Origin: Desulfonatronospira thiodismutans ASO3-1
Lineage (GTDB): Bacteria > Desulfobacterota > Desulfovibrionia > Desulfovibrionales > Desulfonatronovibrionaceae
Length of the DNA stretch: 64,000 nt
NCBI RefSeq assembly: GCF_000174435.1
Contig: NZ_ACJN02000001.1
Coordinates: 671,658-735,657, forward strand
Reading direction: 5' to 3'
Part shown: piece by piece, positions 21,434 to 51,158 of the stretch
Layout: the number at the start of each line of letters is the position of its first letter
How positions within the stretch are numbered: the stretch's first letter is position 1
Notes under the pieces: model-generated
Told to the model about the DNA's origin: nothing
What the model saw: the letters and a program-made list of their open reading frames with translations, nothing else
Databases searched by the model: none
Made by a program: the position numbers and the translations under genes

Positions 21434-22777
21434 CTATTGCCAGGACTTGAGAAAACCGGGAATTTCACTTGCTTCCCTGGGCCCGACCATAACTTCCCAG
21501 CCTTCAAGCTCTTCTTCCAGCTCACCCTTGATCTGGGCCACATATCCTGGAATGACTACCTTGCGGTGCTTGACTTTGTCTTCGATGCCGCTTTTCTTGA
21601 TAAATGCCGCAATCTTTTCCGCGGTGAACTTGCCCGCGGCCCAGGCGGTAAGTGTCGACAGGCCCTCGGAATCCACGATGCCCAGGTGGGCCGGACGCTT
21701 GCTGGACTCGATCTCCGAGGACACTATGAAATAGGTCAGGGAGAAATTGGTGGTCACCAGCACAGGTGAAGATTCGTCCGGGGAAGCGAAATCGTAGAAA
21801 CCCTCCTTGACCTGCATAGGCCTCTGGGGGTCGGTATAGATGTTCTGGCGCAGGACAAACAGCGGCAGGGCGCTCCATGGCTCCAGATTGTTCATGACCA
21901 TTATTCCGCCGTACTTCATGACGTAAACAGAGGCGTGGATGGCTTCCAGCATTTCATCCTGGGTTTCCTGGCAGGGAAAAGTGATGGTGGGGTAGCCCAG
22001 GGGACGAAATTTCTTCTTCAGGGCACTACGGCGCATCATGACCAGATTTTCCAGGGTCTTGGACAGGTCCCTGCTGCCGCTGTCCAGGACCAGGTCCTGT
22101 ACCCCGGCCTTGCTTATCTTGTCTGTTAGTCCGGAGAGTTCCTCCACGGAACCAGCGCGCACCACCAGAGGGCACTGGTGTTTTTTGGCCAGCTCGGCCA
22201 TGGCATCACAATTTTCAGGCGTGGCGGAAGCCATCAAAGGCTTGCCGGTCCCGCACACGTCTAAGGCAGCTGACATGACATCGGGGTCATCGCTCATGAG
22301 CACTAAGGGCAGATCGCAGGACCCTTTTACCTTTTCCACCAGGCCGGCAAAGCTGGATTTGTCCCCGGAAGAGCACTTCAGGGCTGCCAGGTCGGTCTTG
22401 AGTTCGTAACCCACGCGCTCAAAGCGCATTTTTTTGAGGCTTTCCAGCCTGGAATCCACTTCCGCGGCCTCCATGGAATCGTCAATAACTAAGGCAAAGC
22501 CGCATGGATTGAAAAAAGTCTTCTCGTGCCTGAAAAGAACCTGCTCCCCGCCTATCTTCAGGGCATTGTCCCCCTGGCCGATGGTTACTTCCCGCATGGG
22601 CGGAGCCGAGGCTTCGGAAAGGGCGTCCTTGGCCTCCTGGCTGACATGGGGGCAGGAATCCAGGCTTGCGCCCCCGGAAGCCAGCTTCATGGCAAAAGCC
22701 AGGCAGGTAGGCACTCCGCATTCTCCGCAGTTGGTCTGGGGAAGCTTCTTGTAAATATCAAGTCCGGTCAAAGCCAT
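21434..22777 (-). CDS. acsC: Corrinoid/iron-sulfur protein large subunit
   Basis: The 447-residue protein begins with a Fes-type [4Fe-4S] domain, C17-x2-C20-x4-C25-x16-C42 (TNCGECGVPTCLAFAMKLAS). A TIM-barrel domain and a C-terminal corrinoid-binding region (KHRKVVIPGYVAQIKGELEE and the following residues) complete it. With AcsD it carries the methyl group on cobalt from AcsE to the acetyl-CoA synthase A-cluster. The Fe-S cluster takes part in reductive reactivation of cob(II)alamin by the RACo protein encoded near 43 kb. acsD lies immediately upstream and acsF downstream. Confidence 0.95.
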   Translation of the reverse strand: MALTGLDIYKKLPQTNCGECGVPTCLAFAMKLASGGASLDSCPHVSQEAKDALSEASAPPMREVTIGQGDNALKIGGEQVLFRHEKTFFNPCGFALVIDDSMEAAEVDSRLESLKKMRFERVGYELKTDLAALKCSSGDKSSFAGLVEKVKGSCDLPLVLMSDDPDVMSAALDVCGTGKPLMASATPENCDAMAELAKKHQCPLVVRAGSVEELSGLTDKISKAGVQDLVLDSGSRDLSKTLENLVMMRRSALKKKFRPLGYPTITFPCQETQDEMLEAIHASVYVMKYGGIMVMNNLEPWSALPLFVLRQNIYTDPQRPMQVKEGFYDFASPDESSPVLVTTNFSLTYFIVSSEIESSKRPAHLGIVDSEGLSTLTAWAAGKFTAEKIAAFIKKSGIEDKVKHRKVVIPGYVAQIKGELEEELEGWEVMVGPREASEIPGFLKSWQ

Positions 22778-22855: not shown

Positions 22856-23803
22856 CTATTTTACTCCCAGACCTTCCATGGTACTGCGCATGAGCTTAAC
22901 CGTCTCCGGATGCCTGACCACTACTATGTCCGCCCCGGCAACCAGCAGGCTGGTCACTCCGATGGCTTCCCACATTATGCCCCGCTTTACCGGATCACCG
23001 TATTCCGGGTGCTCGTCCGTTCCCACTTTGGCTTCCTTGGCCTTCCAGGCTTCCCGGCCCATGTCGCAGATGATGGGCATCTGCATCATGGCGTCGTTTT
23101 GCTGCAGAGCGGTCAGGCGATCCCTTTCAATTACCGAATAGGTGTATTCCAGTCCGTAACCCAGGGCACCGGTGGAGGGGTCGATCAGGATACGCTCGGC
23201 CGGCATGCCCAGGTTGGTCATGAGGATATTGAGCTGTTTGGCCATATTCACATCAATGGGGGTCTCCCCGGCCACGTTGTGCCCGAAGCCCATGGCCGCA
23301 GCGGATATGGTCTTGTAGTTCTCCTCCACAGCCGGTCCCAGGACCATGGCCCTGCCCTCCATCTGTTCAGCGACCTTTTTCAAGACCTCGCCGTCCTTGG
23401 AGGCGTTGCCGCAGCCGTAAATGATCAGGGGAATCTCCACGGAATCAGCCACCTTTCTGACCACTTCCAGGGCTTCGTCCGGGCCTTTGTCCGCACCGTT
23501 GGGGTCGATGCTCAGAAGTCTCAGGCAGATGAGATCCGCCCCGAACTCGTCTTTGCACTTGGCGGCCCATTTCACTGGATCGTCCCAGACATCCCCCAGC
23601 ACGTCCTCCAGAGCCTTAGCCCAGTCCCCGGGGGCTTCATCGCAGACTTCCATGGCCAGTCTGGGGCGGTTGGGCATTTCCCCTTCAAAGAGATAAAAAG
23701 GTAGAGTAGTTTCCCCTCCTACCTGCACGCTGGCATCACCTGTACCAATTTCAACTTTGTTGATCTTGCCGGTATAACGGTCTATGGGAGCGCTGTAGCT
23801 CAT
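22856..23803 (-). CDS. acsD: Corrinoid/iron-sulfur protein small subunit
   Basis: The 315-residue TIM-barrel protein matches the CFeSP delta subunit: YTGKINKVEIGTG, FYLFEGEMPNRPRLAMEVCD, CLRLLSIDPN, NILMTNLGMPAERILIDPST and GALGYGLEYTYSVIERDRL. It forms the heterodimer with AcsC and caps its cobalamin. The gene precedes acsC by 78 bp on the same strand. A stem-loop and a family 2 element lie upstream, between acsD and folD. Confidence 0.95.
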   Translation of the reverse strand: MSYSAPIDRYTGKINKVEIGTGDASVQVGGETTLPFYLFEGEMPNRPRLAMEVCDEAPGDWAKALEDVLGDVWDDPVKWAAKCKDEFGADLICLRLLSIDPNGADKGPDEALEVVRKVADSVEIPLIIYGCGNASKDGEVLKKVAEQMEGRAMVLGPAVEENYKTISAAAMGFGHNVAGETPIDVNMAKQLNILMTNLGMPAERILIDPSTGALGYGLEYTYSVIERDRLTALQQNDAMMQMPIICDMGREAWKAKEAKVGTDEHPEYGDPVKRGIMWEAIGVTSLLVAGADIVVVRHPETVKLMRSTMEGLGVK

Positions 23804-33166: not shown

Positions 33167-33183
33167 TCAAACCTCCTAATATC

Positions 33184-33795: not shown

Positions 33796-33825
33796 TGTCA
33801 CCTCTGCTCATTGATGCGGTTGTTC

Positions 33826-33999
33826 GTAACCATTCAGGGGGTGCCGCAACGGCCTGGGGACAGTCCCCGCGACACCTTTCCTGCACAATTAAAATATGAC
33901 AAACGCTAAGTTGCGTGAACCTTCAAAGATAGTACTTAGCGGGGACAGTCCCCAGACCTTGTGCCAGGAACTACAAGTGAGTGCCCCCTGAATGGTTAC
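33826..33999. mobile_element. Family 1 inverted-repeat element, copy B (174 bp)
   Basis: The termini GTAACCATTCAGGGGGTGCC and the inverted GTAACCATTCAGGGGG bound the element. It is flanked by 8-mers GGTTGTTC (33818-33825) and AGTTGTTC (34000-34007), a target duplication with one mismatch. The internal sequence is closely related to copy A, in the same orientation. It has no ORF and separates the CBS gene from the downstream NuoF-fragment gene of the formate dehydrogenase module. Confidence 0.88.
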
Positions 34000-34014
34000 A
34001 GTTGTTCTTATTTC

Positions 34015-34422
34015 CTACATGGCCTCGGCCATGAAGCATATCTCGGGCAGGACATGTGATACCAGATCTCTATAGGTGATCATGCCCTTTATTTCATCCC
34101 CCTGGACTATGGGCAGATGCCGCATTTTGTTTTTTGAAGCAGTTGCCAGTGCCAGGCTTACTTCAGTGGAAGGTTCAAAGGTAACAAGATCACCCCTTTT
34201 TACCTCCCGCACCCTGGTATCAGAGGCCTGCACCCCGGTGGCGAAGCAGGTAACCACGTCTTTTTCCGTGAATATGCCGCGCAGCCTGTCATTGTCGTCC
34301 ACAACGAACACACCGCTGACGTTCATTTCTTCCAGGAGTTTTATGGTCTCGGCCACGGTCTCGTCCTGGTGCACCTTGACCACCTGGGCCAGCTTGGAAT
34401 CCAGTATATCTTGCAGTAGCAT
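34015..34422 (-). CDS. Stand-alone CBS-domain pair protein
   Basis: The 135-residue protein consists of two CBS motifs: VKVHQDETVAETIKLLEEMN, VSGVFVVDDNDRLRGIFTEK, then FEPSTEVSLALATASKNKMR and HLPIVQGDEIKGMITYRDLV. Such Bateman modules bind adenine nucleotides or similar ligands. It is clearly related along its whole length to the CBS pair at the C-terminus of the NuoF protein encoded 30 bp upstream, and probably arose by duplication. The two may form a mixed CBS dimer that regulates the complex (inferred). Confidence 0.9.
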   Translation of the reverse strand: MLLQDILDSKLAQVVKVHQDETVAETIKLLEEMNVSGVFVVDDNDRLRGIFTEKDVVTCFATGVQASDTRVREVKRGDLVTFEPSTEVSLALATASKNKMRHLPIVQGDEIKGMITYRDLVSHVLPEICFMAEAM

Positions 34423-34452
34423 TTGTTTTTCTCCTGTAATCCCCGGCTTGGT

Positions 34453-36780
34453 TTAAATGTAGCTTATTTCAGGCAACAGGTATGAAACCAGGTCCCTGAA
34501 AGTTACCATGCCCAGGATCCTGTCTCCATCCACAATGGGCATATGCCTCTTCTTGTTCCTGGAAGCGATGAGGATGGCTGAACTGATGCCCATGGACGGC
34601 TCGAACTTGATAAGATCCTTGCGGGCCACGTGTCCCACAGGTGTATCCTGGCAGGAAAAGCCCTTGTTGTAGCAATGCACCACATCGCGCTCAGTAAAAA
34701 TACCTATGAGCTTTGCGTTGTCATCCACCACGAAAACACTGCTGACATTGCGGTCATGCAGGGTCCTGATGGCGTCGGCAACAGTGGAATCATGATATAT
34801 GGTTATTACCACATGCGGTTTGGATTTGAGAACATCCCACAAGGTCAGTTTGGCCTTGCGTTTGACTGAAACCATTGCTTCATAGGGTATTTTGATTTTT
34901 TCCACGGCAATCTGAGCCTTCTTCTTTACCTTGACCGCTCCTACAGGGCAGATCTCAAAACAGGCCTTGCACTTGGTGCAGTATTCCTGGTCTATGAAAT
35001 AGCTGGACCGCCTTTCCCGCACAGCATCAAAGGCACAGGCATCCCTGCACAGACCGCACAGTATGCAGGCCTTCTGATCGATGGTAAAAACTCCCATGCC
35101 GCTGCAGACATTGGCCCGGCAGTACTTGTCATGGATGTGCTCCTCGTATTCCTCCCGGAAATACCTGAGGGTGGTGGCCACGGGATTGGGAGCGCTTCTG
35201 CCCAGTCCGCACAGTGATCCTTCCCCTACGGTTTCAATGAGCTTTTCCAGCCTTTCTATGTCTCCGGGCTGTCCCTCTCCGGAAGTTATGCGCTCCATTA
35301 TCTGCAGCATCTGGTAGGTCCCCACCCTGCACGGGGGGCACTTGCCGCAGGACTCGGACTGACAGAAGGCCAGAAAAAACTTGGCAATATCCACCATGCA
35401 GTCACTTTCGTCCATGACCACCATGCCCCCGGATCCCATCATGGAACCTACCTGCCACAGGGAATCAAAATCCACCGGCAGGTCCAGGTACTGCTCCGGA
35501 ATACAGCCCCCGGAAGGCCCTCCGGTCTGAATGGCCTTGAACTTCCTGTTGTTCAGGATTCCTCCGCCGATCTCGTCCACGATTTCGCGCAAGGTGATCC
35601 CCATGGGTACTTCCACCAGTCCGGTGTTGTTGACCTTTCCCGCCAGGGAGAAGACCTTGGTTCCCGGAGAACCCGGTGTGCCTATGCCCAGAAACCAGTC
35701 TGCCCCTTTTTCGATAATGGGGGGTACACAGGCGTAAGTCTCGATATTGTTCAGGTTGGAAGGGTACCCCCATGCTCCGCCCCCGACCTCCGAAAGCCTT
35801 GGAGGCCTGGCCCTGGGGAATCCTCTCTGGCCTTCCAGGGAGGCCACCAGGGAGGTGGCTTCGCCGCATACGAATGCTCCGGCCCCTTCCTTGATGAATA
35901 CGCTGAAATCAAAGCCTGTGCCCAGGATATTCCTGCCCAGAAGGCCCATCTCTTCTGCCTGCTTAATGGCTTTTTCCAGGGTCTTTATGGCCAGAGGGTA
36001 TTCGTGACGGACATAAATAAATCCAAAGTTTGCATCAATGGAATAAGCGCAGATGAGCATGCCCTCCAGCAGACTGAAAGGGTCGCCTTCCATGATGGAG
36101 CGGTCCATGAAGGCCCCGGGATCGCCCTCGTCCCCGTTGGCGATGACCAGCTTGGGCACCCCTTTGCCGGAACGCTTGGTATGGGCCCATTTAAAACCGG
36201 CCGGGAACCCGGCCCCTCCCCTGCCCCTGAGATTGGCCTTTTTGACCTCCTCCAGGACATCATCGGGGCTCATTCTGGAAAACATCTTTTTCACGGCCTT
36301 GAATCCGCCTGCGGCTATATACTGGTGGATATCATGGGGATCCACCTTCCCGGTGTTGCGCAGAGCTATTTTGACCTGCTTGCTGTAAAAGGGCACCTCC
36401 TGAATCTGTTCTTTTACCTCGTCCAGAAAGGAATCACGGTAAAGAAATTCCCGGACAGGCTGACCACTGCCCATGGTTTTGGAAATCATTTCTCCGGCAC
36501 GTTCGGGTTTTACTTTTTGATAAAAATACCCGTGCGGTTCCACCTGCATCAGAGGACCTTTCTGGCACAGACCCTGACAGCCGGTTTTGACTATATCAAC
36601 CTCTATCCCCTGCCTGGCGGATTCATCAGCCAGTTCCCGGGCAATCTCCTGAGAGCCCAGGGCAGTACAGGGCAAACCGCAGCAAACCGACGCCCTGACC
36701 TTGGCTCCATTGCCTTCCTGCCGGCGCAGTGAGCCTTCCAGGGATTTAAAATCTTTTAAGCTCTTCAGCCTCTCCATCAA
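34453..36780 (-). CDS. NuoF-like flavoprotein fused to a C-terminal CBS-domain pair
   Basis: The 775-residue protein has, in order, an N-terminal thioredoxin-like [2Fe-2S] domain (C33/34, C38, C68, C72) and the FMN loop LRGRGGAGFPAGFKW at about 185-198. ANGDEGDPGAFMDRS for NADH (about 214-228), an SLBB region and the N3 cluster (C478, C481, C484, C524) follow. Two ferredoxin clusters lie at about 572-583 and 601-612, and a CBS pair (about 647-775, VFVVDDNAKLIGIFTERDVV) ends the protein. The fused CBS pair is unusual for this family. The protein is the second diaphorase-type subunit of the formate dehydrogenase module, between NuoE copy 1 and the stand-alone CBS gene. Confidence 0.92.
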   Translation of the reverse strand: MMERLKSLKDFKSLEGSLRRQEGNGAKVRASVCCGLPCTALGSQEIARELADESARQGIEVDIVKTGCQGLCQKGPLMQVEPHGYFYQKVKPERAGEMISKTMGSGQPVREFLYRDSFLDEVKEQIQEVPFYSKQVKIALRNTGKVDPHDIHQYIAAGGFKAVKKMFSRMSPDDVLEEVKKANLRGRGGAGFPAGFKWAHTKRSGKGVPKLVIANGDEGDPGAFMDRSIMEGDPFSLLEGMLICAYSIDANFGFIYVRHEYPLAIKTLEKAIKQAEEMGLLGRNILGTGFDFSVFIKEGAGAFVCGEATSLVASLEGQRGFPRARPPRLSEVGGGAWGYPSNLNNIETYACVPPIIEKGADWFLGIGTPGSPGTKVFSLAGKVNNTGLVEVPMGITLREIVDEIGGGILNNRKFKAIQTGGPSGGCIPEQYLDLPVDFDSLWQVGSMMGSGGMVVMDESDCMVDIAKFFLAFCQSESCGKCPPCRVGTYQMLQIMERITSGEGQPGDIERLEKLIETVGEGSLCGLGRSAPNPVATTLRYFREEYEEHIHDKYCRANVCSGMGVFTIDQKACILCGLCRDACAFDAVRERRSSYFIDQEYCTKCKACFEICPVGAVKVKKKAQIAVEKIKIPYEAMVSVKRKAKLTLWDVLKSKPHVVITIYHDSTVADAIRTLHDRNVSSVFVVDDNAKLIGIFTERDVVHCYNKGFSCQDTPVGHVARKDLIKFEPSMGISSAILIASRNKKRHMPIVDGDRILGMVTFRDLVSYLLPEISYI

Positions 36781-37416: not shown

Positions 37417-39375
37417 CTACAGACTGCTCTCGCGCCGGGCGGCCATATCCATGAGCACCCTTTCCACGCCGAACTTGCCCGGCTCATACTTCTTAAGCTT
37501 GAGGGCATCCCTGGCTGCGTCAATGTATTTCAGGGCCATGTCGAATATCTTTTCCGGATCCGGCTCAAAATGAAAAGCCCCCTTGAATCTCTCATACCAG
37601 GTCTCGCTCATGATTCTGGTCACTTCGTTACTGGCCCCTACCGGAGACTCGCCGCCAAAAATAACCGGCACACCGGACGCAGCGAAATAGGTCCCGATGG
37701 CCAGGGCCTTTTCGGACATCCATTCCGGGGCAATGCCCACTCCGGGCATGCCGCCTATCTCTTCGGACAGGCCGCCTTCAGCGGCCATGGCGGTAAGAAT
37801 GGTCAAAATCCTGGAGTTGTCCACGCAGGAGCCCAGGGGTAGAATTGGGGGAATGCCTATGGCCTCGCAGACTTCCTTCAGCCCTGGACCGGCATGCTCC
37901 AGGGCCATTTCCGGAGTCATATACCCGGCAGCCTGGCAGGCATGTGAACCGCATCCAGTGGAAACCACCAGCACGTCCGACTTGATGAATTCCTTGGCCA
38001 GGTAGCGATGCAGCCCCTGGGCCGGAACCCTGGGGTTGTCGCATCCGGCCAGGCCTACAACTCCCCGGATACGGCCCACCTGGATGGCGTCGTTTAAAGG
38101 CCTGAAAGAAGCACGCATACGCCCGCCCTGCATATATTCGATGTATTCCTGGGAAAATCCGGCCACCAGGTCCTGCTGATCCGTGGCTGTGTATCCGTTT
38201 TTCTTGCGGTTGGGAAAATTATCCACGGCAAGCTTGATGATTTCCTTGGCAATCTCTGCGGCCCGGTGCTCTTCATAGCCCACATGAGTGGCACCGGTAA
38301 ATTTGGCCTTGTCAGAGGTGGTTACTACCTTGGTGTGAAACCGTTCCGAGAGTTTTACCAGGGCAGGCATGATGCACTGCACGTCTACAGTCATGGCATC
38401 CACCTTGCCGGTTAAAATGGCCAGTTCCTGGTTGGTGAAACCTCCGGCTGTGGGTATGCCGTGGCGCATGAGGATCTCGTTGGCGGTACAGCACATGCCG
38501 CCAAGGTTTATGCCTGCGGCCCCCTTGGAGCGCGCATACTCCTGCATTTCCGGGTCATCGGCCATTAATACTATCATCTCCGCCAGGGTGGGCTCGTGGC
38601 CATGCACCACGATATTCACCTCGTCATCCTTGAACATGCCGAAGCCGGCCTTGCCCCGCATGGGATGGGGAGTGCCGAAAAGGACATCGGAGATATCAGT
38701 TGAAATCATGCTGCCGGCCCACCCGTCAGCCAGGGCAACCTTGACAGCGTTTAAAAGCAGGTTGTCCGGGTCGTGATCCACACCCATATGGGTGCGGTGC
38801 ATGCCCTCGCAAACCTCCCGGTCAACTCCCCTGGGGATGACCCCCCACTTTTTCCACCGTTCCTGGGTCTTTTGTGGAGCCCGTTTGAGGTAGTTGATCT
38901 CGCCCCTCTGGCGGCCGAAATCATCAATAAGGGTGGTGGCCACGTCCTTGGCTACTTCCATTACATCACGGCCCTGGTGATTAATTTCCAGGATATCGGC
39001 CATCTTGAAAAGCTTGTGCTCGTCAGCGATTCTAAAGTCTTTGGCCTCGCCAGTGGCCACGGCCAGCAGGGTAAAGGCCATATCCCGGGCATGATCCGAG
39101 TGAGCCGCTGTACCGGACACCACTTTTCTCAGAAAATTCCTGGCCACAATGCTTGGCAGGCTTGCCCCGCATACTCCTGTAGCCTCTTCTTCGGCATTGG
39201 AGCCGATGAGCCTGCAGGGTCCCACATGACAGTTGGAACAGCAGGCTCCTGATGAGCCTATGGGGCAGGACTTCATTTTGCCGGCCTTGTCAAAACAAAT
39301 ACTTATATTCTGTTCATCGCTCCATCTGACGATCTGCTCGGCAGCCTCGTTGGCGCTTCTAATGGGCTTATCCAT
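37417..39375 (-). CDS. acsA: Carbon monoxide dehydrogenase catalytic subunit
   Basis: The 652-residue protein is a Ni-Fe-S CO dehydrogenase (CooS/AcsA). The N-terminal cysteines for the B and D clusters are in SCPIGSSGACCSNCHVGPCR. Conserved C-cluster segments include GMCCTANEILMRHGIPTAGG, STGCGSHACQAAGYMTPEM and GSCVDNSRILTILTAMAAEG. It interconverts CO2 and CO and passes CO to AcsB through an internal channel. acsB lies directly upstream (46 bp), as in bacterial CODH/ACS operons. Length is normal. An alternative name is cooS. Confidence 0.96.
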   Translation of the reverse strand: MDKPIRSANEAAEQIVRWSDEQNISICFDKAGKMKSCPIGSSGACCSNCHVGPCRLIGSNAEEEATGVCGASLPSIVARNFLRKVVSGTAAHSDHARDMAFTLLAVATGEAKDFRIADEHKLFKMADILEINHQGRDVMEVAKDVATTLIDDFGRQRGEINYLKRAPQKTQERWKKWGVIPRGVDREVCEGMHRTHMGVDHDPDNLLLNAVKVALADGWAGSMISTDISDVLFGTPHPMRGKAGFGMFKDDEVNIVVHGHEPTLAEMIVLMADDPEMQEYARSKGAAGINLGGMCCTANEILMRHGIPTAGGFTNQELAILTGKVDAMTVDVQCIMPALVKLSERFHTKVVTTSDKAKFTGATHVGYEEHRAAEIAKEIIKLAVDNFPNRKKNGYTATDQQDLVAGFSQEYIEYMQGGRMRASFRPLNDAIQVGRIRGVVGLAGCDNPRVPAQGLHRYLAKEFIKSDVLVVSTGCGSHACQAAGYMTPEMALEHAGPGLKEVCEAIGIPPILPLGSCVDNSRILTILTAMAAEGGLSEEIGGMPGVGIAPEWMSEKALAIGTYFAASGVPVIFGGESPVGASNEVTRIMSETWYERFKGAFHFEPDPEKIFDMALKYIDAARDALKLKKYEPGKFGVERVLMDMAARRESSL

Positions 39376-39421: not shown

Positions 39422-41602
39422 CTACATCATGGGATCCATGCCAAGAGCTGGATGTCCTACCTTTTCCAGGTATTCTAGTACTTCCATCTCGGTGGTGGCC
39501 ACTGTCTCATCGGCGATCTTGTCCAGCATGTCAGGCTCGCCCACCTTTTCGGCCTGGGCCTGGAGCATGTTGCGCAGGCGTTCCTTCAGGTGCGAGGGCA
39601 TCCATACCAGGCGTTTGAATCCTCCCTCTGCTGAAATGAATTTGTCGCTGCCCAGGTAAAACTTGCCCACCCCCAGAAATCCCGGGGTCTGTATACCGCC
39701 GCCAACCATTCCAGCCAGGGTGGAAAAGGTCATACCGCTGGGGGTCATGCCGGAAAAGTCGCGATCCACCACCATAACCCCGTTGGCAGCGGGCAGCAGG
39801 GCCACAATGCACTCAAAGCAGCCGCAGGAGGTCATGGGGTCTTCCAGGATGCTGTAGGCCTTGAGCCTTTCCAGGTTGCCCTTGGAGGCCTGGGATATAA
39901 ATTCGTTGACCCCCTGCCATTCACCCTTGTGCTGGTCTATAACCTCGCCCTTGGCCACCGGCTTATTGGGTCCGGATGGGTCGATTTCGTAGGAGGCCTG
40001 GCCGTCCAGCCAGTTGTAAGCGCCGCACAGGCCCAGACGCTCCGGAGTAATGACGCAGACATGGTTGGGTGCAAAGGACTGACACAGGCTGCAGGAGTAA
40101 AAGGTATCCACTGATTCGTCCTTGAGACCGGCCAGGCGCTCGTCACGTTCATTATACAGGGTCCTGGCCTCCTGCAGGATTTCGTTGACCTTGTCCTCTT
40201 CTGTATAAAGGGTTACCTGGACCTTGTCCGCAATGGAGGGAAAATCGGACAATAGCTTGGCATGCAGGATATCGCCTATATGACTGAGCTTGAACCCCTT
40301 TTCCCTGGCCTGCCTGCTGATGCGGATCCAGGAAATGTCCCTCTGGCCCATGTGCATTATACCCTCGGCGCTGTTTATCAGGTGATGAAACTGCCTTTCC
40401 AGAATGGGCTCAAAATCCTTCTGCATCTTGCGTCCGGCAACGTCCACCACTATAGCTAAGGGCAGTACCCCCACCGGCTCCAGCTCATCGATGTCCGGAC
40501 CCACAACCTCTATCCGGCCGTCCTCCACCTCTTCCATCTCCCGCATGCGCAGCAGTTCGCAGCAGGTGGATTTGCGGCCTCCGCATTCGGCGAAAAGATC
40601 ATCCTTGCGCACCCGCTCGCCCTCAAAGGCCGGGCCGTAGGACAGGGGAATGGGTATCTCGGTGACCGTCACCTTGAGCCCGCGCACCTCGATGGCTTTC
40701 TGAACGATCTTGTCGTGGGGTATGGACGACACCACGTGCTCGTAGGTACAGACACCCGTGGGCAGAATCTCCGGAATATCCGTGTCTGCAATGGTGGGAA
40801 ATCCGTAGCTTATGGCCCCGGCGGCGGTGGCGTACTTCTCGTCGTCCACCTCGCCCAGGGCGATGACAAAGGCGAATATGCGCTGCTTGTTGTATTTTAA
40901 GATATTCTTGAAGTCCCCCGGCTTTACCCCGCCGAAGGACATGGCCGCCCTGGCCGCAAAGCCAAGGGAGTAAACCTGGCCGTGGACTTCATTGTCAAAG
41001 GGGACCAGTCGGGTGTCCCAGCCCAGCTGCACCCCTTCCTCGGCCAGCTGGTCAGCGAAACAGACCCCGTTGGTGCTGCCGGCCATAAATACGTACAGGC
41101 TTTTCTGCTGCAGTTCCCTGGCGATCTTCACCGCGGTCTCGTTGTCCGGTGCCGCTCCCACAACAGCAGCAAATCCGGGAGCGCTGCCGTCAACAAACTC
41201 CACTCCGCGCTGGCGCATGATAGCGTCATCAGCAGCACCCAGGTAAATGCCGTGAACCGGTGAAGGGCCAATTACATAACGCACTCCCTGCATTATCTCC
41301 TGGGCGAAAAGTGTGGATATGCCGCTGTCTAAGGTCTGACCCAGGTAAGGCAGCCAGAGGGAATCCGTGGGAATCTCGCCCAGCATGTCCCTGGCCAGTG
41401 CCAGGGGCTTTTCCATATCTGAAAGCTTCTCTACCTTGTGTCCGCTCAAGGCGTAAATCACAGGCAGATAGTAGCCGGTATTGGGAAAGGCCACCGGTTC
41501 ATCCGGGCCTTTGGCGTCAATGGCCTCTTTGAGGCGCTCCTCGGCACGTGAGACTATGGCATGCGCTCCGCGTATGGCTGCAGACGCTATTATCTTTGAC
41601 AT
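39422..41602 (-). CDS. acsB: Acetyl-CoA synthase (CODH/ACS alpha subunit)
   Basis: The 726-residue bacterial-type AcsB includes an N-terminal CODH-contact domain (about residues 1-310), with PDNETAVKIARELQQKSLYV. The C-terminal A-cluster domain has the cysteine ligands in YSCSLCQSFAPNHVCVITPE, RLGLCGAYNWLDG and DPMTSCGCFECIVALLPAAN. The CGC tripeptide binds the distal nickel. It makes acetyl-CoA from CO, the methyl group on AcsC/AcsD and CoA. The acsB-acsA order and the full-length N-terminal domain mark it as bacterial, not archaeal. A long repeat-rich gap separates it from cooC upstream. Confidence 0.97.
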   Translation of the reverse strand: MSKIIASAAIRGAHAIVSRAEERLKEAIDAKGPDEPVAFPNTGYYLPVIYALSGHKVEKLSDMEKPLALARDMLGEIPTDSLWLPYLGQTLDSGISTLFAQEIMQGVRYVIGPSPVHGIYLGAADDAIMRQRGVEFVDGSAPGFAAVVGAAPDNETAVKIARELQQKSLYVFMAGSTNGVCFADQLAEEGVQLGWDTRLVPFDNEVHGQVYSLGFAARAAMSFGGVKPGDFKNILKYNKQRIFAFVIALGEVDDEKYATAAGAISYGFPTIADTDIPEILPTGVCTYEHVVSSIPHDKIVQKAIEVRGLKVTVTEIPIPLSYGPAFEGERVRKDDLFAECGGRKSTCCELLRMREMEEVEDGRIEVVGPDIDELEPVGVLPLAIVVDVAGRKMQKDFEPILERQFHHLINSAEGIMHMGQRDISWIRISRQAREKGFKLSHIGDILHAKLLSDFPSIADKVQVTLYTEEDKVNEILQEARTLYNERDERLAGLKDESVDTFYSCSLCQSFAPNHVCVITPERLGLCGAYNWLDGQASYEIDPSGPNKPVAKGEVIDQHKGEWQGVNEFISQASKGNLERLKAYSILEDPMTSCGCFECIVALLPAANGVMVVDRDFSGMTPSGMTFSTLAGMVGGGIQTPGFLGVGKFYLGSDKFISAEGGFKRLVWMPSHLKERLRNMLQAQAEKVGEPDMLDKIADETVATTEMEVLEYLEKVGHPALGMDPMM

Positions 41603-41959: not shown

Positions 41960-42730
41960 TTATCTGTTACCCGTAATTACTTCCCGGCACAACCTGTCCA
42001 CCGCTTCCACCGCTTTAGAATCCCCGGGGAGTTCCAGCAGGGATTGCCCCCGGGCCGTAAAATCCAGAATCATCTCGTCCGCCGGCAGCAGTACGACCGG
42101 TTCCAGGCCCTGTTCCTGGACGGTTTTTTTCAGATTGTCAGGAATATTCGAGCTGCTGCGGTTTATCACCAGCCTGCTTTTCTCCACATTCAACTGCAAC
42201 TCCCTGCTCAGATTCCTGATACGCCCCGCAGTTATAACTCCAACCGGCGTGGGCTCGGATACAATGAGCATTATATCGATATTTCTGGTGGTGCGCCGGC
42301 TCAAATGCTCCATGCCGGCCTCATTGTCCACCACTACAAAAGGATAATTTTCTGCCAGGCTGTCAATATGGCGGCGCAGGAGGTTGTTGGCATAGCAGTA
42401 ACAGCCCTGGCCCTCGGGACGACCCATGGCCAGCAGGTCAAAACCGCTGGACTCCACCAGGGCCTGCTGCATCTGGTACTCTACATAAGCCTCTTTGGAC
42501 ATTCCAGCGGGGATTTCTCCATCCCTTATCTCCTGGGTCATATCTTCACGCATGCCGCCTATGGTCTTATCCACTTCCACTCCCAGGGACAGGTTCAAAG
42601 TGGAATTGGAATCAGCATCAACTGCCAGCACCGGCCCGTGACCGTTTTGAATCAAAAATTTTAGTATAAGCGAGGCCAGAGTGGTTTTCCCGGTCCCCCC
42701 CTTGCCCACCAGGGCAATGGTCTTACTCAC
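41960..42730 (-). CDS. cooC: CooC-type CO dehydrogenase maturation ATPase
   Basis: The 256-residue MinD-like ATPase has SKTIALVGKGGTGKTTLASL (deviant Walker A), AVDADSNSTLNLSLG and the CxC motif in EGQGCYCYANNLLRRHIDSL. VVDNEAGMEHLSRRTTRNID and LIVSEPTPVGVITAGRIRNL follow. CooC dimers bind nickel at the CxC motif and insert it into the CODH C-cluster. It lies upstream of acsB-acsA, and the RACo gene precedes it, so it belongs to the same transcription direction. It is a distinct paralogue of the AcsF-like ATPase at 20632-21405. Confidence 0.92.
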   Translation of the reverse strand: MSKTIALVGKGGTGKTTLASLILKFLIQNGHGPVLAVDADSNSTLNLSLGVEVDKTIGGMREDMTQEIRDGEIPAGMSKEAYVEYQMQQALVESSGFDLLAMGRPEGQGCYCYANNLLRRHIDSLAENYPFVVVDNEAGMEHLSRRTTRNIDIMLIVSEPTPVGVITAGRIRNLSRELQLNVEKSRLVINRSSSNIPDNLKKTVQEQGLEPVVLLPADEMILDFTARGQSLLELPGDSKAVEAVDRLCREVITGNR

Positions 42731-42976: not shown

Positions 42977-44872
42977 TCACCCCATAAGGCTGGCCTGAAC
43001 TGATGGAAACATGGACATGTCCGTATGGGGCATAAAAAGAGCGGATACGTACTGATCCATGAATGAAGGATCCTGGCTGAGCTCCAGGTAGGTCATTTTT
43101 TTGCAGACCTGCAGGGCCTCCTGGCGCATCCGCCTGGACAGAAGCATTACCCTGGATCCCAGCAGAGAGCCGTTGCCTATGTATTTGACCCTGTCCGGGC
43201 TGATTTCCGGAAGAAGTCCTATGGTAACCGCCTTGTCCAGCTCAAGGTAGCGGCCGAACCCACCGGCTATGAGCAGTTCGTCAACATCCTGCAGAGTTAT
43301 GCCCACAGCGTTCAGCAGGGTGGTGATGCCGGCGAATACCGCAGCCTTGGCCCGCAGAAGATTGTCCAGATCACCCTCGGTGATGACTATATCCTGACCA
43401 TTTTGGGCGTCTTCAGCCCAGACCAGGACATATTCCAGAGCCTCCTGTCCGCGGATCCTGGGGGTGTCCAGTTCTGTATTAAAGCGTCCTTTGGAGGTTA
43501 TCACTCCGGCCATGAGCAGTTCGGCCATGGCGTCAATGAGCCCTGAACCGCAGATCCCCCTGGGGCTGGACTGGCCAACGGTCAAAATCATGGGCTCAAA
43601 GGTACCGGGATCGATCCGGACCTGTTCCACAGCTCCTGTGGCGGCGCGCATCCCGTGCTTGATGGCTCCCCCTTCAAAGGCCGGCCCTGCAGAGCACGAA
43701 CATCCGATGAGCCACTCGGAGCCGCCCAGGACTATTTCTCCGTTGGTGCCCACATCTATATAAAGGGTCAGCTTTTCCGAACGAAAGAGGTTGGAGCCGA
43801 TAAGCCCGGCAGTAATGTCTCCTCCCATATAGCTGGCCCTGGAAGGAGTCAGGTATATCCTGGCCGAATCACTCCACTCCAGGGATAGTTCACCGGCCTG
43901 AAGAACAGGCGGAGCACTTGTCACCGGCACATAAGGCTCCTCCCTGATGCCTGGTTCCACGCCCATAAACAGATGAGTCATGGTGGTATTGCCGGACATG
44001 ACCACGTCGGCTATATCCTGACTTTGCACCCCGGTCTCCTTGAGCATCTCCTGAATCAGGCCGTTTAGAGTACTGTGGACCAGGCCCTGGATATGGGCAA
44101 GGTTTTCCCGGTTTCTGGAGGCGTAGACTATGCGGGAGATGACGTCTTCTCCGCAAGAGTACTGGCTGTTGTAATCCGAGCGATGAGCCTGGACCCGGCC
44201 GTTTTCCAGGTTGACCAGTTCCGCGCAGATGGTGGTGGTGCCGATGTCTACGGCCAGACCGTAAACTGGCTCTGTCCTGTGGCCGGGAAAGACCTGGGTA
44301 ACCTCGAAACCCTCATCAGTGGCAAAAACGGTAAAGGTGGCCTTCCATCCGGAAGATCGAAGAGTACTGGAAGCCTGCTTGATTAGCGGCAAGGAAAGAT
44401 GGATCTTTTTGCTGCCAAGCTGTTTTTCCAGGGCCCTTGTCAATCTGTCAATATCACTGACATTGTCTTCCAGGGAGGGAGGAGGCAGTTCCAGATAGAT
44501 CCTCTGGACCGAAGGGTTGATCTCAATATGGCCAAGCAGCTCGGAAGGTTCCACGCTGGTGAGCATGGCCCTTTCAATGGCCTGGCGGTCGATTGCCCGG
44601 GCATCTTCAGGCAGGTGGACCTCTATATCCGAGTTGATCCTGGTGATGCAGGCAAGGGCATATCCCTTTTCCTGATCAGCGGCACTTATTCTGGCAGATA
44701 CATCAGACTCAAACTCACCCTTTTCCACCAGAACCTTACACTTGCCGCAGCTGCCGCTGCCGCCGCAGGAAGCGCTGAACTGTACCCCGGCCAGCATGGC
44801 TGCCCGCAGCAGGTTTTCGCCCTGCTCCACCTGGACCTGTTTGCCTGCGGGAAGAAAAGTCACATTGAACAT
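42977..44872 (-). CDS. acsV: Reductive activator of corrinoid protein (RACo/ASKHA, DUF4445)
   Basis: The 631-residue protein starts with a plant-type [2Fe-2S] ferredoxin domain (C36, C42, C45, C75; SASCGGSGSCGKCKVLVEKG). A linker domain and an actin-like ATPase domain of the DUF4445 family follow: GLAVDIGTTTICAELVNLEN, MSGNTTMTHLFMGVEPG, YIDVGTNGEIVLGGSEWL and GICGSGLIDAMAELLMAGVI. It uses ATP and one electron to bring inactive cob(II)alamin of AcsC/AcsD back to cob(I)alamin. It sits at the upstream end of the CODH/ACS genes. A shortened paralogue is encoded at 47514-49064. Confidence 0.94.
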   Translation of the reverse strand: MFNVTFLPAGKQVQVEQGENLLRAAMLAGVQFSASCGGSGSCGKCKVLVEKGEFESDVSARISAADQEKGYALACITRINSDIEVHLPEDARAIDRQAIERAMLTSVEPSELLGHIEINPSVQRIYLELPPPSLEDNVSDIDRLTRALEKQLGSKKIHLSLPLIKQASSTLRSSGWKATFTVFATDEGFEVTQVFPGHRTEPVYGLAVDIGTTTICAELVNLENGRVQAHRSDYNSQYSCGEDVISRIVYASRNRENLAHIQGLVHSTLNGLIQEMLKETGVQSQDIADVVMSGNTTMTHLFMGVEPGIREEPYVPVTSAPPVLQAGELSLEWSDSARIYLTPSRASYMGGDITAGLIGSNLFRSEKLTLYIDVGTNGEIVLGGSEWLIGCSCSAGPAFEGGAIKHGMRAATGAVEQVRIDPGTFEPMILTVGQSSPRGICGSGLIDAMAELLMAGVITSKGRFNTELDTPRIRGQEALEYVLVWAEDAQNGQDIVITEGDLDNLLRAKAAVFAGITTLLNAVGITLQDVDELLIAGGFGRYLELDKAVTIGLLPEISPDRVKYIGNGSLLGSRVMLLSRRMRQEALQVCKKMTYLELSQDPSFMDQYVSALFMPHTDMSMFPSVQASLMG

Positions 44873-45299: not shown

Positions 45300-46121
45300 A
45301 TGAGCAAGAATTTGAACCCCATGCAGATCTATCAGCTTTTGAACCAGTCCAACTGCCGGGAATGCGGGGAACCTACCTGCATGGCCTTTGCTGCTTCAGT
45401 TTTCAAGGGACATAAACAGCTTTCTGCATGTCCTTATGTTGATAAAGAGACACTGAATAAATATTCTGACCTGGAACCGGCCCGGACAGGCACTGAAGAA
45501 AATATGCAGCAGGCCATGCATTACCTGCAGCAGAAAATCCCTGAAACTGATCTGGCAGAGGCCGCCCGGAGAACCGGTGGTATTTTTGAAAACCAAAAAC
45601 TGACCCTGCAGATAATGGGCAAGAACTTCAGTGTGGACACAAAGGGTGGCCTGGACTCGGAAATACATGTCAACCCCTGGGTCAGCATACCTGTTCTTCA
45701 ATACATACTGCATGGAAAAGGCAAAGAACCCACCGGCAACTGGGCTCCCTTCAAGGAACTGCCCCATGGCCGGCCCAGGGCGGGCCTTTTTGAGCAGCGC
45801 TGTGAAAAACCTCTGAAAAGGGTGGCGGATAACTATCCGGATCTTTTTTATGATATACTGGACCTGTTCGACGCTATGGAAGTGGACAAAGGCTTCAGGG
45901 CGGATGTTTCTTTTCTTCTATATCCTCTGCCCAGACTGCCCATGATCATTGCCTGGTGGTATCCGGCGGAAGACCTGGAGTCGGCTTTGCATATCTTTTT
46001 CGATGAAACAGCCAAGGACAACCTGGGGGTGGACGGTGTTTTCGCCCTGGGGACCGGGCTGGCCATGATGGTGGAAAAGCTGGCTCTGCGGCACGGAGTA
46101 AAAGGGTTCATTCCTTTATAA
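45300..46121 (+). CDS. Fes-domain/DUF3786 protein
   Basis: The 273-residue protein opens with a Fes-type [4Fe-4S] motif, C19-x2-C22-x4-C27-x16-C44 (SNCRECGEPTCMAFAASVFK). This is the same spacing as the N-terminus of AcsC. The rest is a DUF3786 domain (VNPWVSIPVLQYILHGKGKE, FLLYPLPRLPMIIAWWYPAE, GVFALGTGLAMMVEKLALRH). The function is unknown. The domain shared with AcsC and its place beside the two RACo-like genes suggest it handles electrons for corrinoid or Fe-S chemistry. A second DUF3786 protein without the Fes domain follows 21 bp later. Confidence 0.82.
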   Translation: MSKNLNPMQIYQLLNQSNCRECGEPTCMAFAASVFKGHKQLSACPYVDKETLNKYSDLEPARTGTEENMQQAMHYLQQKIPETDLAEAARRTGGIFENQKLTLQIMGKNFSVDTKGGLDSEIHVNPWVSIPVLQYILHGKGKEPTGNWAPFKELPHGRPRAGLFEQRCEKPLKRVADNYPDLFYDILDLFDAMEVDKGFRADVSFLLYPLPRLPMIIAWWYPAEDLESALHIFFDETAKDNLGVDGVFALGTGLAMMVEKLALRHGVKGFIPL

Positions 46122-46142
46122 ACACTTTTGCCAGGACAGATC

Positions 46143-46772
46143 ATGACAGACGAATACAATACAAATGACGGTGAACAGGAGGCCTGGGCCATACTGCAGG
46201 GCCTGGATCCGCAGCTGGTAAAAAAAAGGACCCTGGCCGGGTCTGGGGCAGGTTCAAAAAGTTTCAGCCTCATGTGCCTGGGCCGCAAACTGGACATCGA
46301 CCCGGCAGAGCGCGTTATAAGCACCCATTCCAGGCAGGCCCAGGTCCTGCTGCAGGACCTGGGCTGCTATACCCGGCTGTCCATTCTCAGGTACCTGGTG
46401 CACTGCCCTGATGAACCCCTGCACAATGAGTGGATCAAGCCGGCAAGCATTCCCGGAGGCAGAATATTTGACCAGGGGACCCATGTCCTGCCCCTGAATG
46501 AACCGGCCGCACTTATTCAAAAAAAAACCGGGAGCGCACAAAAGGCATGCGCCGGGCTGGGCGGCCACCTTCATGGCAACGGCGACCTGAGCATGATACT
46601 TTACCCCATGCCCCGCTTCCCGGTCCTGTTTATCTTCTGGTACGGGGACGAGGAGTTTGCACCTGTCGGCTCAATCCTCATAGATGCCCTGTGGCGGGAT
46701 CACCTGCCAGTGGACATCACCTGGGCTGCAGCAAAGCTCTCTTTTGAAATGCTTTTTAACCAGTTGAAATAA
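46143..46772 (+). CDS. DUF3786 protein without a Fes domain
   Basis: The 209-residue protein starts MTDEYNTNDGEQEAWAILQG; an upstream Met at 46128 is possible but lies before a weaker site. It shares the DUF3786 pattern with its upstream neighbour: LSILRYLVHCPDEPL, LSMILYPMPRFPVLFIFWYG, DEEFAPVGSILIDALWRDHL and WAAAKLSFEMLF. There is no cysteine cluster. The pair probably forms an operon and may act together. Reaction unknown. The gene ends 10 bp from the convergent flavodoxin-family gene. Confidence 0.78.
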   Translation: MTDEYNTNDGEQEAWAILQGLDPQLVKKRTLAGSGAGSKSFSLMCLGRKLDIDPAERVISTHSRQAQVLLQDLGCYTRLSILRYLVHCPDEPLHNEWIKPASIPGGRIFDQGTHVLPLNEPAALIQKKTGSAQKACAGLGGHLHGNGDLSMILYPMPRFPVLFIFWYGDEEFAPVGSILIDALWRDHLPVDITWAAAKLSFEMLFNQLK

Positions 46773-46782: not shown

Positions 46783-47364
46783 TCAAAGATCATAATACAT
46801 GTCCCGCCCCAGAGAATATGCCTCATCCAGGTATTCCGGGTAGTTCTGGACATCGTTCGCCCCGTCCAGGCCACGAAACAGCAGGCTTCCCCAGAGCTGC
46901 ATATCCAGCACATCAAAGAAATATCGTACGCTTAACACTGCCCCGTCAAAAAGCCTGGCCCCCCTGGTGGCCCCTGCGGAAATAAAAAGCCCCTTGCGCT
47001 TTAGATCTTTTTTTCCGGGCTGCTCCTCATCTATCCAGTACTTGCGTACCCACATGGACTGAAAACGGTCCATGAAAGCCTTGGTATGGGCGCTTACAGA
47101 GTAGAAAAAAATTGGCGAGGCCAGAATAAGCCCCCTGGCTTGCAGTATCCGGTCCCGGACTTCCTGGAAATCATCCTCAATGGCGCATTCCCCGTCCTTT
47201 TGACATTTGTATATCTCCAGGCAGGGGGATATCTTCAGGTCCCGGAGTACATACTCCTGCACCGAGGCCCCGCTGTCCCTGGCCCCCTGCACCGCCCTGG
47301 ATAAAAGTGCAGCAGTATTGCCCTTGCGCCTGGGACTGCCGTATATGGCTACTAAATCGGACAT
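46783..47364 (-). CDS. Flavodoxin-family NAD(P)H-dependent oxidoreductase
   Basis: The 193-residue protein has the FMN-reductase fold. The phosphate loop is AIYGSPRRKGNTAALLSRAV, and a Cys-rich segment KISPCLEIYKCQKDGECAIE, ILASPIFFYSVSAHTKAFMD and a C-terminal helix follow. It carries FMN and could transfer one or two electrons. It lies 149 bp downstream of the second RACo-like gene on the same strand. It might supply the electron that the Fe-S-less RACo paralogue cannot hold itself; this is inferred from gene order alone. Confidence 0.86.
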   Translation of the reverse strand: MSDLVAIYGSPRRKGNTAALLSRAVQGARDSGASVQEYVLRDLKISPCLEIYKCQKDGECAIEDDFQEVRDRILQARGLILASPIFFYSVSAHTKAFMDRFQSMWVRKYWIDEEQPGKKDLKRKGLFISAGATRGARLFDGAVLSVRYFFDVLDMQLWGSLLFRGLDGANDVQNYPEYLDEAYSLGRDMYYDL

Positions 47365-47513: not shown

Positions 47514-49064
47514 TTACCTGCATACTTCCTGAGGCCTGGGAACTGACGGAAAAAGGCTGACATCAGTATGGGGAATAAACCTGGCCCCGGAAAACCTGTG
47601 CATGAATTCCTGGTTCACGTTCAGCTCGATATAGGTTACCCTTCTGGCGGCATCCATTATCCTCTGCCTGAAATCACAGTCTGTTATGGCCCGCACGGCT
47701 CCCTTCAAAGAAGTATTGCCTACCGGATGGTACACGTTCAGGGGCAGATCCGGAAGCATTCCCAGGACCACGGCCTTTTCCGGATCTATGTGTCTGCCGA
47801 AGGCCCCGGCCACGTTTATCCTGCCCAGGTCCTCAAAAGACAGGCCCACCTGCTGCAGAAGGGTGCTTAAAACCGCATACATGGCGGCCTTGGAACGGAT
47901 CAGGGCATTTATATCCGACTGGCGTACCGTCACCGGCTGACCATGGCCGCTCTGCTCCCCCTGCACAACTACAAAACAGGGGTTGTGCTCGTCTTCTACA
48001 AATCTTTCTTTCATGGACTCGGGCCTGAATTTACCCCGTGTATCCAACATGCCGGCCAGGTACATCTGTGCAGCCAGATCGATAAGACCGGATCCACAGA
48101 TGCCAAGAGCAGGCTCACCGCCGATGGTTGAATAATCCAGGAATTTTGAATCCGGGTCAATGCTGACCTTGTCTATGGCCCCGGGACCGGCCCGCATCCC
48201 CATCCTGGCCACACCGCCCTCCAGCGCGGGACCGGCAGCCCCGGCGCAGGCCAGGAGCCAGTCTTTGCCTCCCAGAATCACTTCGGCATTGGTGCCCACG
48301 TCAACAAGCATGCCCGGCTGGTCCTCAAGGTCCAGGTCACAGGCGACAATCCCGGCCAGAAGATCCCCCCCGAAATAACTGCCGACGCTGGGAGCAACCC
48401 AGATTGGTGCACTAGAGCAGATCTCCAGGCCCAGGTCCCTGGCCCGGAAAATATCTACAGTATTTGCAACCGGGATGTAAGGTTCCCTGCACATATGATA
48501 AGGGCTGAGCCCCAGCAGAAAATGGGTCATGGCGGTATTTCCGGCCATGCCCAGGGCCATTAGATCCCCTGAAACCATCCCGGCCCGGCCTGCCAGGTCG
48601 GCCGCCATGGCATTTATGTCCGAAACCGTGGCCCGCTGCAGTTGCGCAAGTCCTGCATTACGTTCAGCATAATGAATCCGGGTCAGGATGTCCGCACCGA
48701 ACTGCCCCTGTGCATGCTCCCGGGATACCCTGGCCATCTCCTGTCCGGACAAAAGATCCACGAGACAGGCCTCCAGGTGGGTTGTTCCCAGATCCAGAGC
48801 CATTCCGGGGAGTTTTTGCGGCATCCCGGGGAAAAAACTGATAATTTCCATCCCGTTGCCCGTATCCCTTACCACAGCCGCGCCCTGGAAGCCTGCGTCC
48901 CTGAAGCTGCCGGCCACCCCGGCCATATCCGGCAATGGACAAGTGATATTCTCCTGCCCGGTTGCCTGGCGGACCGAGCGTTTCAGCCGGTCCAGATCCG
49001 CTGTATTATCTGAAAGACTGGGCTTTGAGGCACTGACCTCTACTGCCTGAACCATACTTTTCAT
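47514..49064 (-). CDS. RACo-like ASKHA protein lacking the [2Fe-2S] domain
   Basis: The 516-residue protein aligns with the linker and actin-like ATPase regions of the RACo at 42977-44872. Motifs are GMALDLGTTHLEACLVDLLS, MALGMAGNTAMTHFLLGLSP, MLVDVGTNAEVILGGKDWLL, GICGSGLIDLAAQMYLAG and INVAGAFGRHIDPEKAVVLG. The ending HTDVSLFPSVPRPQE resembles HTDMSMFPSVQ of the first copy. It starts after the point where the ferredoxin domain would be, so it has no C-x5-C-x2-C cluster. It may activate a different corrinoid protein or need a separate electron donor. It is divergent from fhs. Confidence 0.88.
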   Translation of the reverse strand: MKSMVQAVEVSASKPSLSDNTADLDRLKRSVRQATGQENITCPLPDMAGVAGSFRDAGFQGAAVVRDTGNGMEIISFFPGMPQKLPGMALDLGTTHLEACLVDLLSGQEMARVSREHAQGQFGADILTRIHYAERNAGLAQLQRATVSDINAMAADLAGRAGMVSGDLMALGMAGNTAMTHFLLGLSPYHMCREPYIPVANTVDIFRARDLGLEICSSAPIWVAPSVGSYFGGDLLAGIVACDLDLEDQPGMLVDVGTNAEVILGGKDWLLACAGAAGPALEGGVARMGMRAGPGAIDKVSIDPDSKFLDYSTIGGEPALGICGSGLIDLAAQMYLAGMLDTRGKFRPESMKERFVEDEHNPCFVVVQGEQSGHGQPVTVRQSDINALIRSKAAMYAVLSTLLQQVGLSFEDLGRINVAGAFGRHIDPEKAVVLGMLPDLPLNVYHPVGNTSLKGAVRAITDCDFRQRIMDAARRVTYIELNVNQEFMHRFSGARFIPHTDVSLFPSVPRPQEVCR

Positions 49065-49394: not shown

Positions 49395-51158
49395 ATGGCT
49401 CTTGACCCCACCAAGCACAAAGACTGGGAAATAGCCGAGGAAGCGGAAAGCCGCATGAAGACAGTTTACGAACTGGGCGAACAGCTGGGCCTGGCTAAAG
49501 AGGAACTGCTGCCCCACGGACACTACGTGGCCAAGCTGGATTACCGCAAGATCCTGGAAAGCCGGCAGAGCAAGCCCGACGGCAAGTACGTGGACGTTAC
49601 CGCCATTACCCCTACTCCTCTTGGAGAAGGAAAATCCACCTGCGCCATGGGCCTGGTTCAGGGGCTGGGCAGAAGGAACAAATCTGTAATGGGTGCCATT
49701 AGGCAGCCTTCCGGCGGACCTACGATGAATATCAAGGGTTCCGCGGCAGGTGGAGGCCTGGCCCAGTGCATCCCCTTGACCCCTTTTTCCCTGGGACTCA
49801 CCGGGGACATCAACGCCATCATGAATTCTCATAATCTGGGCATGGTGGCCCTGACTTCCCGCATGCAGCATGAAAACAACTATACCGATGAAGAGCTGGC
49901 CAAACGCGGCCTCAAGCGACTGGACATTCATCCCAAAAAAGTCGAATTCAACTGGATAATCGACTTTTGCGCCCAGGCCCTGCGCAACATCACCATTGGC
50001 CAGGGGGCCAAAATGGACGGCCCCATGATGCAGTCCAGATTCGACATTGCGGTAAGCTCGGAAATCATGGCCATTTTGTCCGTGGCCAAGAACCTGGAGG
50101 ACATGCGCAATAAAATCGGCAAGATCGTTGTGGCCTATGACCGCCAGGACCGCCCCCTCACCACTGCCGACCTGGAAGTGGACGGGGCCATGACCGCCTG
50201 GATGGTGGAGGCCCTGAACCCCAACCTAATGCAGACCCTGGAGGGTCAGCCCGTGGCCGTTCATGCCGGTCCATTCGCCAACATAGCCATTGGACAGAGT
50301 TCGGTCATCGCCGACCGCGTGGCCCTGAAACTGGCCGATTACAACGTCACCGAGAGCGGCTTCGGAGCCGACATCGGATTTGAAAAATTCTGGAACCTCA
50401 AGTGCCGCTATTCCAATCTCAAGCCGCACTGCGCCGTGGTGGTGGCCACCATCCGGGCCCTGAAATGCCACGGTGGAGCGCCCATTCCAGTGCCGGGACG
50501 GCCCATGCCCGAAGAATACGGCAAGGAAAACGTAGGCTGGGTGGAAGAAGGCTGCAAAAACCTCCTGCATCACATCGAGACCGTCAAAAAGGCCGGCATC
50601 AACCCTGTGGTCTGCATCAACGCCTTTTACACGGACACGGATAACGAAATCAAGGCTGTGCGCCGCCTGTGCGAAGAGGCCGGAGCCAGGGTGGCCGTAT
50701 CCAAACACTGGCAGTACGGCGGGGACGGAGCCCTGGAATTTGCCGATGCAGTCACTGATGCCTGTGAAGAGAAAAACGAATTCCGCTTCCTGTACGACCT
50801 GGAAACCCCTCTGGAAAAACGCATCGAGCTCATTGCCAGGGAGGTCTATGGAGCAGACGGTGTAAGCTTCGGGCCGGACGCCCAGGCCAAGCTCAAACGC
50901 ATGGAAAAAGATCCGGACATGAAGGACATGGGAACCTGCATGGTCAAAACCCACCTGTCCCTGTCCCATGAACCCTCTCTCAAGGGCGTGCCCAAAAACT
51001 GGACCCTTCCGGTACGCGACATCCTGACCTACAAGGGTGCGGGATTCGTGGTTCCTGTAGCCGGCACCATCAGTCTCATGCCCGGCACAGGCTCCGATCC
51101 GGCCTATCGCCGCATCGACGTGGATACGGAAACAGGCAAGGTAAAAGGACTGTTCTAA
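49395..51158 (+). CDS. fhs: Formate-tetrahydrofolate ligase
   Basis: The 587-residue protein shows the ligase's ATP site [20 protein letters not shown], then [59 protein letters not shown] and the ending [12 protein letters not shown]. It activates formate with ATP to 10-formyl-H4folate, the step between FdhA and FolD. It is the only methyl-branch gene on the plus strand, with its own promoter region and the terminator at 51188. AAGGAGG precedes the ATG at 49395. Confidence 0.97.

Follow-up and report, generated by a model that had tools for sequence, protein, structure and literature searches.

What can a RACo-type ATPase do for the Wood-Ljungdahl pathway when it carries no [2Fe-2S] domain? 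The question is raised by a gene of the sulfate reducer Desulfonatronospira thiodismutans ASO3-1, which we analyzed within a stretch of 64,000 nucleotides (here called the window). The window holds a Wood-Ljungdahl cluster with genes for CODH, AcsB, CooC, two NuoEF-like units, formate dehydrogenase, FolD, AcsD, AcsC, AcsE, MetF/MetV-like proteins and FTHFS, several of these names being assigned from sequence and from matches in relatives. The cluster encodes a full-length RACo/AcsV and, in addition, a shorter paralogue (Table 1). How RACo couples ATP hydrolysis to uphill electron transfer is unsettled; the key steps proposed are ligation of cobalt by Ser398 and delivery of the electron from the attached [2Fe-2S] domain. 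The short RACo is a natural and widespread paralogue that has neither element and keeps the ATPase, and it occurs in about one third of the ACS genomes sampled in its phylum. Our search of the open literature found no paper on a ferredoxin-less form of RACo.

Table 1. Features of the window discussed in the text (positions counted from its first nucleotide).
Feature	Position	Strand	Remarks
AcsC, CoFeSP large subunit	21434..22777	-	expected target; starts with a 4Fe-4S motif; served as reference, to which AcsC in f2 and f40 loci matches
AcsD, CoFeSP small subunit	22856..23803	-	matches in f2 and f40 loci
CooS/AcsA, Ni-CO dehydrogenase	37417..39375	-	
AcsB, acetyl-CoA synthase	39422..41602	-	
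CooC-type P-loop ATPase	41960..42730	-	between full RACo and AcsB
Full-length RACo/AcsV	42977..44872	-	631 aa; Fer2, linker, middle and ASKHA domains; Ser394 retained
DUF3786 protein	45300..46121	+	N-terminal PF04060 Fe-S domain resembling AcsC's
DUF3786 protein without Fe-S domain	46128..46772	+	
FMN_red/Flavodoxin_2 flavodoxin-fold protein	46783..47364	-	193 aa; 149-bp gap to short RACo
Short RACo paralogue	47514..49064	-	516 aa, ATG start; partial linker, middle and ASKHA ATPase domains; no [2Fe-2S] domain
Ala276 codon of short RACo	48237..48239	-	equivalent of RACo Ser398; alignment gap-free there
Formate-tetrahydrofolate ligase (FTHFS)	49395..51158	+	divergent neighbour of short RACo

A conserved RACo paralogue without the ferredoxin domain

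The short RACo matches the Pfam families RACo_linker (residues 1-80, profile positions 8-82 of 86), Raco_middle and RACo_C_ter, with scores for the middle (PF17651) and ASKHA (PF14574) domains far above the Pfam cut-offs, and the same search of the window proteins found no Fer2 match in it. By sequence alignment it corresponds to residues 129 to 630 of Carboxydothermus RACo (PDB 3ZYY/4C1N). Its AlphaFold model (pLDDT 93.5) matches residues 122-629 of 3ZYY in structure comparison, with a Z score of 53.2 and an rmsd of 2.7 for 506 aligned residues. The ATP-site motifs are conserved in the short and the full-length clades alike, and the protein ends in HTDVSLFPSV. A frameshift or a wrong start concealing a ferredoxin domain can be ruled out, since all three reading frames of the 330-bp stretch that separates the short RACo from the divergent FTHFS gene are interrupted by stops, and none contains the ferredoxin motif C-x4-6-C-x2-C. 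The original prediction, of a RACo paralogue that lacks the [2Fe-2S] domain and keeps the ATPase motifs and the HTD-SLFPSV ending, is thus borne out: there is no Fer2 match, the protein begins at RACo residue 122, and no remnant lies upstream. Against the NCBIfam AcsV model NF040756 (cut-off 800 bits) it scores 466, and the bona fide full-length paralogue of the window also falls below the cut-off, at 693. When compared with a congener, dN/dS is 0.15 for the short RACo, 0.14 for the full RACo and 0.03 for AcsB. The dN/dS value, the confidence of the model and the widespread orthologues confirm that the short RACo is a real paralogue and not a chance reading frame.

Searching genome contigs yielded 80 loci. 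Most of these encode proteins without the ferredoxin domain, about 490-545 residues long, from Desulfobacterota and, in two cases, from Nitrospirota. The phylogeny that had been suggested as a check places the ferredoxin-less proteins in a single clade: in a quick tree of 107 sequences, with SH-aLRT as the only support measure, 70 of them stand on one side of a branch with support of 100 and the Fer2-bearing sequences on the other. The ferredoxin-less clade sits beside the CODH/ACS-type RACo. Since this clade is single and the outgroups carry Fer2, one loss of the [2Fe-2S] domain is the simplest account, and the short RACo belongs to an old, conserved paralogous branch, at whose origin both this domain and the cobalt-ligating serine disappeared. 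In the alignment 86 columns are conserved at 97% or more. Orthologues share 87% and 96% identity with the short RACo of the window in two congeners and 42-49% in the order-level family f2. Both forms of RACo are present in two genomes of the window genus (G002 and G006), and neither form in four others (G001, G003, G004 and G005).

Neighbouring genes and other DUF4445 proteins

The original prediction had noted a flavodoxin-family gene downstream on the same strand and two adjacent DUF3786 genes. These neighbours are as described, except that the DUF3786 genes lie on the opposite strand. Isf-type proteins have the compact motif C-x2-C-x2-C-x4-7-C; the flavoprotein of the window, like those of G002 and G006, has C-x2-I-x2-C-x5-C, that is, three of the four Isf cysteines, the second being missing. 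Its orthologues occur (72-73%) in the congeners G003, G004 and G005, which have neither of the two RACo forms, and (61-66%) in f2, where they lie far from the short RACo or on a different contig altogether; retention of the flavoprotein thus does not depend on RACo. Almost no other short-RACo locus has the gene as a neighbour, and where it is one, the gap varies (149 bp in the window, 135 bp in G002, 398 bp in G006). The RACo-less congeners and the lack of linkage elsewhere led us to reject the flavoprotein as a conserved partner and dedicated electron carrier, although within this genus alone it might conceivably serve as a donor.

The DUF3786 pair (45300-46772, +) adjoins the flavoprotein and the short RACo in G002 and G006 too, and a DUF3786-like gene also adjoins acs genes in other loci (L042/L066 and L118). 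Elsewhere in the window (28498-36780, -) there are two NuoEF-like/Fe-S flavoprotein units, the second of which (34453-36780) carries a C-terminal fusion to CBS domains and lies between the formate dehydrogenase and CODH genes.

The window genome (4.1 Mb, 5 contigs) encodes four DUF4445 proteins. The three other than the short RACo each have an N-terminal ferredoxin-type [2Fe-2S] Cys motif, and for one of these the gene of another corrinoid protein lies at a distance of about 7.5 kb. A DUF4445 protein with a ferredoxin domain reactivates the B12-dependent methionine synthase of Phaeobacter (PGA1_c15200), and DUF4445 proteins of Desulfovibrio are also known in this connection (PMC5764234). The short RACo shares with PGA1_c15200 a DUF4445 ATPase of the kind used for cobalamin reactivation; it has no counterpart of that protein's ferredoxin domain, and the target of PGA1_c15200 is methionine synthase. 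Separately from the short RACo, the window genome encodes a DUF4445 protein with a Fer2 motif (G000:C1:1223350-1224057 region), whose type is shared by most relatives.

Association with CODH/ACS

We searched 345 genomes of the phylum (at least 90% completeness requested) with the ACS C-terminal family and a short-RACo profile. The short RACo was called by a gap in the scores, at 563.9 bits or more, the next match, at 512.8, having long frames; at least five lower-scoring short proteins of family f31 (in G210, G252, G347, G381 and G397) were thereby left out of the count. ACS was detected in 222 genomes and the short RACo in 81. Eighty of these 81 have ACS, as against 142 of the 264 genomes without the short RACo (Fisher p 4e-17, with genomes treated as independent and relatedness uncorrected). 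The one exception (G178) belongs to a family in which most other genomes have ACS. About 64% of the ACS genomes in the sample are without the short RACo.

Gene order points the same way. In family f2 the operon reads, with variations, CooC-CooC-PrmA-like-short RACo-full RACo-AcsD-(CooS)-AcsB-AcsC-AcsE. In many Desulfobacterales the short RACo is apart from acsC/acsD, near genes for CooC, histone-deacetylase-like, CBS, PrmA-like, metallo-beta-lactamase and Sir2 proteins. Among the 45 loci with enough flanking sequence, CooC-type genes were found in 15 and PrmA-like genes in 16, and the short and full RACo genes are linked in four. Co-occurrence and operons together show that the short RACo belongs to the CODH/ACS pathway. 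The suggestion that it serves a different corrinoid protein finds no support. Other corrinoid proteins do exist in the genome, as four B12-binding_2 proteins attest, but across genomes it is ACS that the short RACo accompanies, it sits in acs operons, and the other three DUF4445 proteins have a [2Fe-2S] motif of their own.

The PrmA-like methyltransferase was rejected as an obligatory partner: genomes have strong matches to it whether or not they carry the short RACo, and the window genome has none at E 1e-30. A subfamily of these methyltransferases is encoded in CODH/ACS operons or beside CooC and the short RACo (L037-L043, L061-L123). Within four genes of the short RACo, in 69 loci, no convincing gene for a small [2Fe-2S] protein was found; the sole regex match for a detached Fer2 (L061) is doubtful and lies in an apparent antisense ORF.

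A full-length RACo is present in 73 of the 81 short-RACo genomes as well. Of the eight without it, four belong to family f40 and one is G162; in the remaining three (G131, G143 and G432) an assembly gap may account for its absence. In family f40 (5 species of 4 genera, 95-99% complete) there is one RACo_C_ter match per genome, and it is the short RACo, while both CoFeSP subunits and ACS are encoded in all five species, in an acs operon. There the short RACo keeps the same neighbours in the five species (L148-L152): a Cys-rich CxxCxxCC-type gene, a DivIC-like gene and a DUF362/4Fe-4S gene. On the other hand, four ACS genomes (G109 and G145 of f14; G137 and G170 of f42) have no DUF4445 match at all, and the sole presence of the short RACo in f40 is therefore no proof of an activator role.

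The missing cobalt ligand and possible modes of action

The RACo/AcsV of Carboxydothermus hydrogenoformans (3ZYY, 4C1N) is among the closest known systems. The short RACo resembles it over the full length of the linker, middle and ASKHA domains (36% identity), in its ATP motifs and in its link to CODH/ACS, and differs from it in lacking RACo residues 1-121, which form the [2Fe-2S] domain, and in having Ala in place of Ser398. RamA and RamA-like proteins (TIGR04270) have the DUF4445/ASKHA core in common with it. RamA carries [4Fe-4S] clusters at its C terminus; the short RACo is without such a C-terminal Cys motif and scores 102.6 bits against the TIGR04270 cut-off of 500, and no C-x2-C-x2-C follows the ASKHA domain in any of the collected sequences. 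In a further group of ASKHA ATPases that drive electron transfer a [4Fe-4S] cluster bridges the dimer. The structural match of these to the short RACo has a Z score of 14, compared with 53 for RACo.

Ser398 was the one residue covered in our comparison of CoFeSP contacts. It is conserved in 25 of 25 CODH/ACS-type full RACos, whereas the corresponding residue is Ala in 70 of 70 short RACos, which makes this one of only eight columns that separate the clades at the thresholds applied. Within the AlphaFold model the lowest internal confidence falls on the Ala276 loop (block means 80 and 67). In the complex of RACo with CoFeSP, Ser398 ligates Co(II), which is thought to be a prerequisite for ATP-driven activation (PMC4934906). 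Another Fer2-bearing DUF4445 protein of the genome (L003) also has Ala at this position; Ser is therefore a trait of CoFeSP-type RACo and not of all corrinoid activators. In eight of eight Fer2-bearing relatives from other phyla, the majority encoded close to methyltransferase genes, the residue is Pro. Such proteins with Pro adjoin AcsE-like methyltransferase genes in Pseudomonadota and other groups (L122, L127, L128, L131 and L132).

The most likely reading, to which we give an even chance, is that the short RACo is an ATP-driven partner of CoFeSP/CODH-ACS that no longer donates the electron itself, its exact target and the electron source being deduced indirectly. Much like RACo, it would dock on CoFeSP, whether free or part of the CODH/ACS assembly, and through binding and hydrolysis of ATP it would remodel the complex or bring about its release, while neither ligating Co(II) nor supplying an electron. 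Because the protein has no electron-delivering domain, any electron must come from elsewhere: presumably from the full-length RACo that nearly all of these genomes also have or, in those with the short RACo only, from a diffusible ferredoxin or AcsC's [4Fe-4S] cluster.

Alternatively, the short RACo could itself reduce and activate CoFeSP with an electron taken from a separate carrier, such as a ferredoxin, an Fe-S protein or a flavoprotein. The original prediction had proposed a split activator, though for a different corrinoid protein; of that reading the missing electron-delivering domain stands, and the sole DUF4445 protein of f40 keeps such a system conceivable, but the neighbouring flavoprotein as carrier is not supported. 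The five f40 species, in which that protein accompanies AcsC, AcsD and ACS and adjoins the DUF362/4Fe-4S and Cys-rich genes, argue for such a system, as does an Rnf-like 4Fe-4S gene two genes away in three Desulfosarcina-type loci. However, no carrier gene is conserved across the short RACo clade, the flavoprotein of the window is no conserved partner, and the cobalt-ligating Ser, thought necessary for ATP-driven activation, is absent, so that we consider a split activator rather doubtful. For f40 in particular, it is conceivable, as a tentative suggestion, that the short RACo, acting alone and with neither a cluster of its own nor cobalt ligation, spends ATP on making CoFeSP accessible to reduction, the electron coming from a separate carrier or from AcsC's [4Fe-4S] cluster. 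If so, the two halves of corrinoid activation, which RACo unites in a single protein, would be separated in f40.

The presence of both forms in 73 of 81 genomes, and their tandem genes in f2 and several Desulfobacteraceae loci, would also fit a regulatory or structural subunit, with short and full RACo forming a heterodimer in which one protomer has the cluster and Ser and the other only the ATPase. Heterodimeric ASKHA activators are known in benzoyl-CoA reductases, and a 3-methylbenzoyl-CoA reductase subunit is among the structural matches to the short RACo. Yet the short form is alone in f40 and the two genes are far apart in most Desulfobacterales loci (4 of 45 linked), which makes a heterodimer unlikely.

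The Desulfobacterales neighbourhood away from acsC/acsD would also be in keeping with a function in the maturation of CODH/ACS. The short RACo would then be a maturation or quality-control ATPase of CODH/ACS, acting for instance with CooC, and not a CoFeSP factor. CooC-type and PrmA-like genes do lie near about one third of the well-flanked loci, and in the f2 operons, but many CODH/ACS genes have a CooC gene beside them in any case, the PrmA-like family occurs as well in ACS genomes that have no short RACo and is absent from the window genome, and the RACo frame is retained throughout the short RACo. We think this role quite unlikely. Finally, one missing domain might bespeak a functionless relic, either a decaying duplicate or a RACo whose start was mis-called, but the empty upstream region, the dN/dS of 0.15, the single deep clade in two phyla and the 86 highly conserved columns leave this reading highly improbable.
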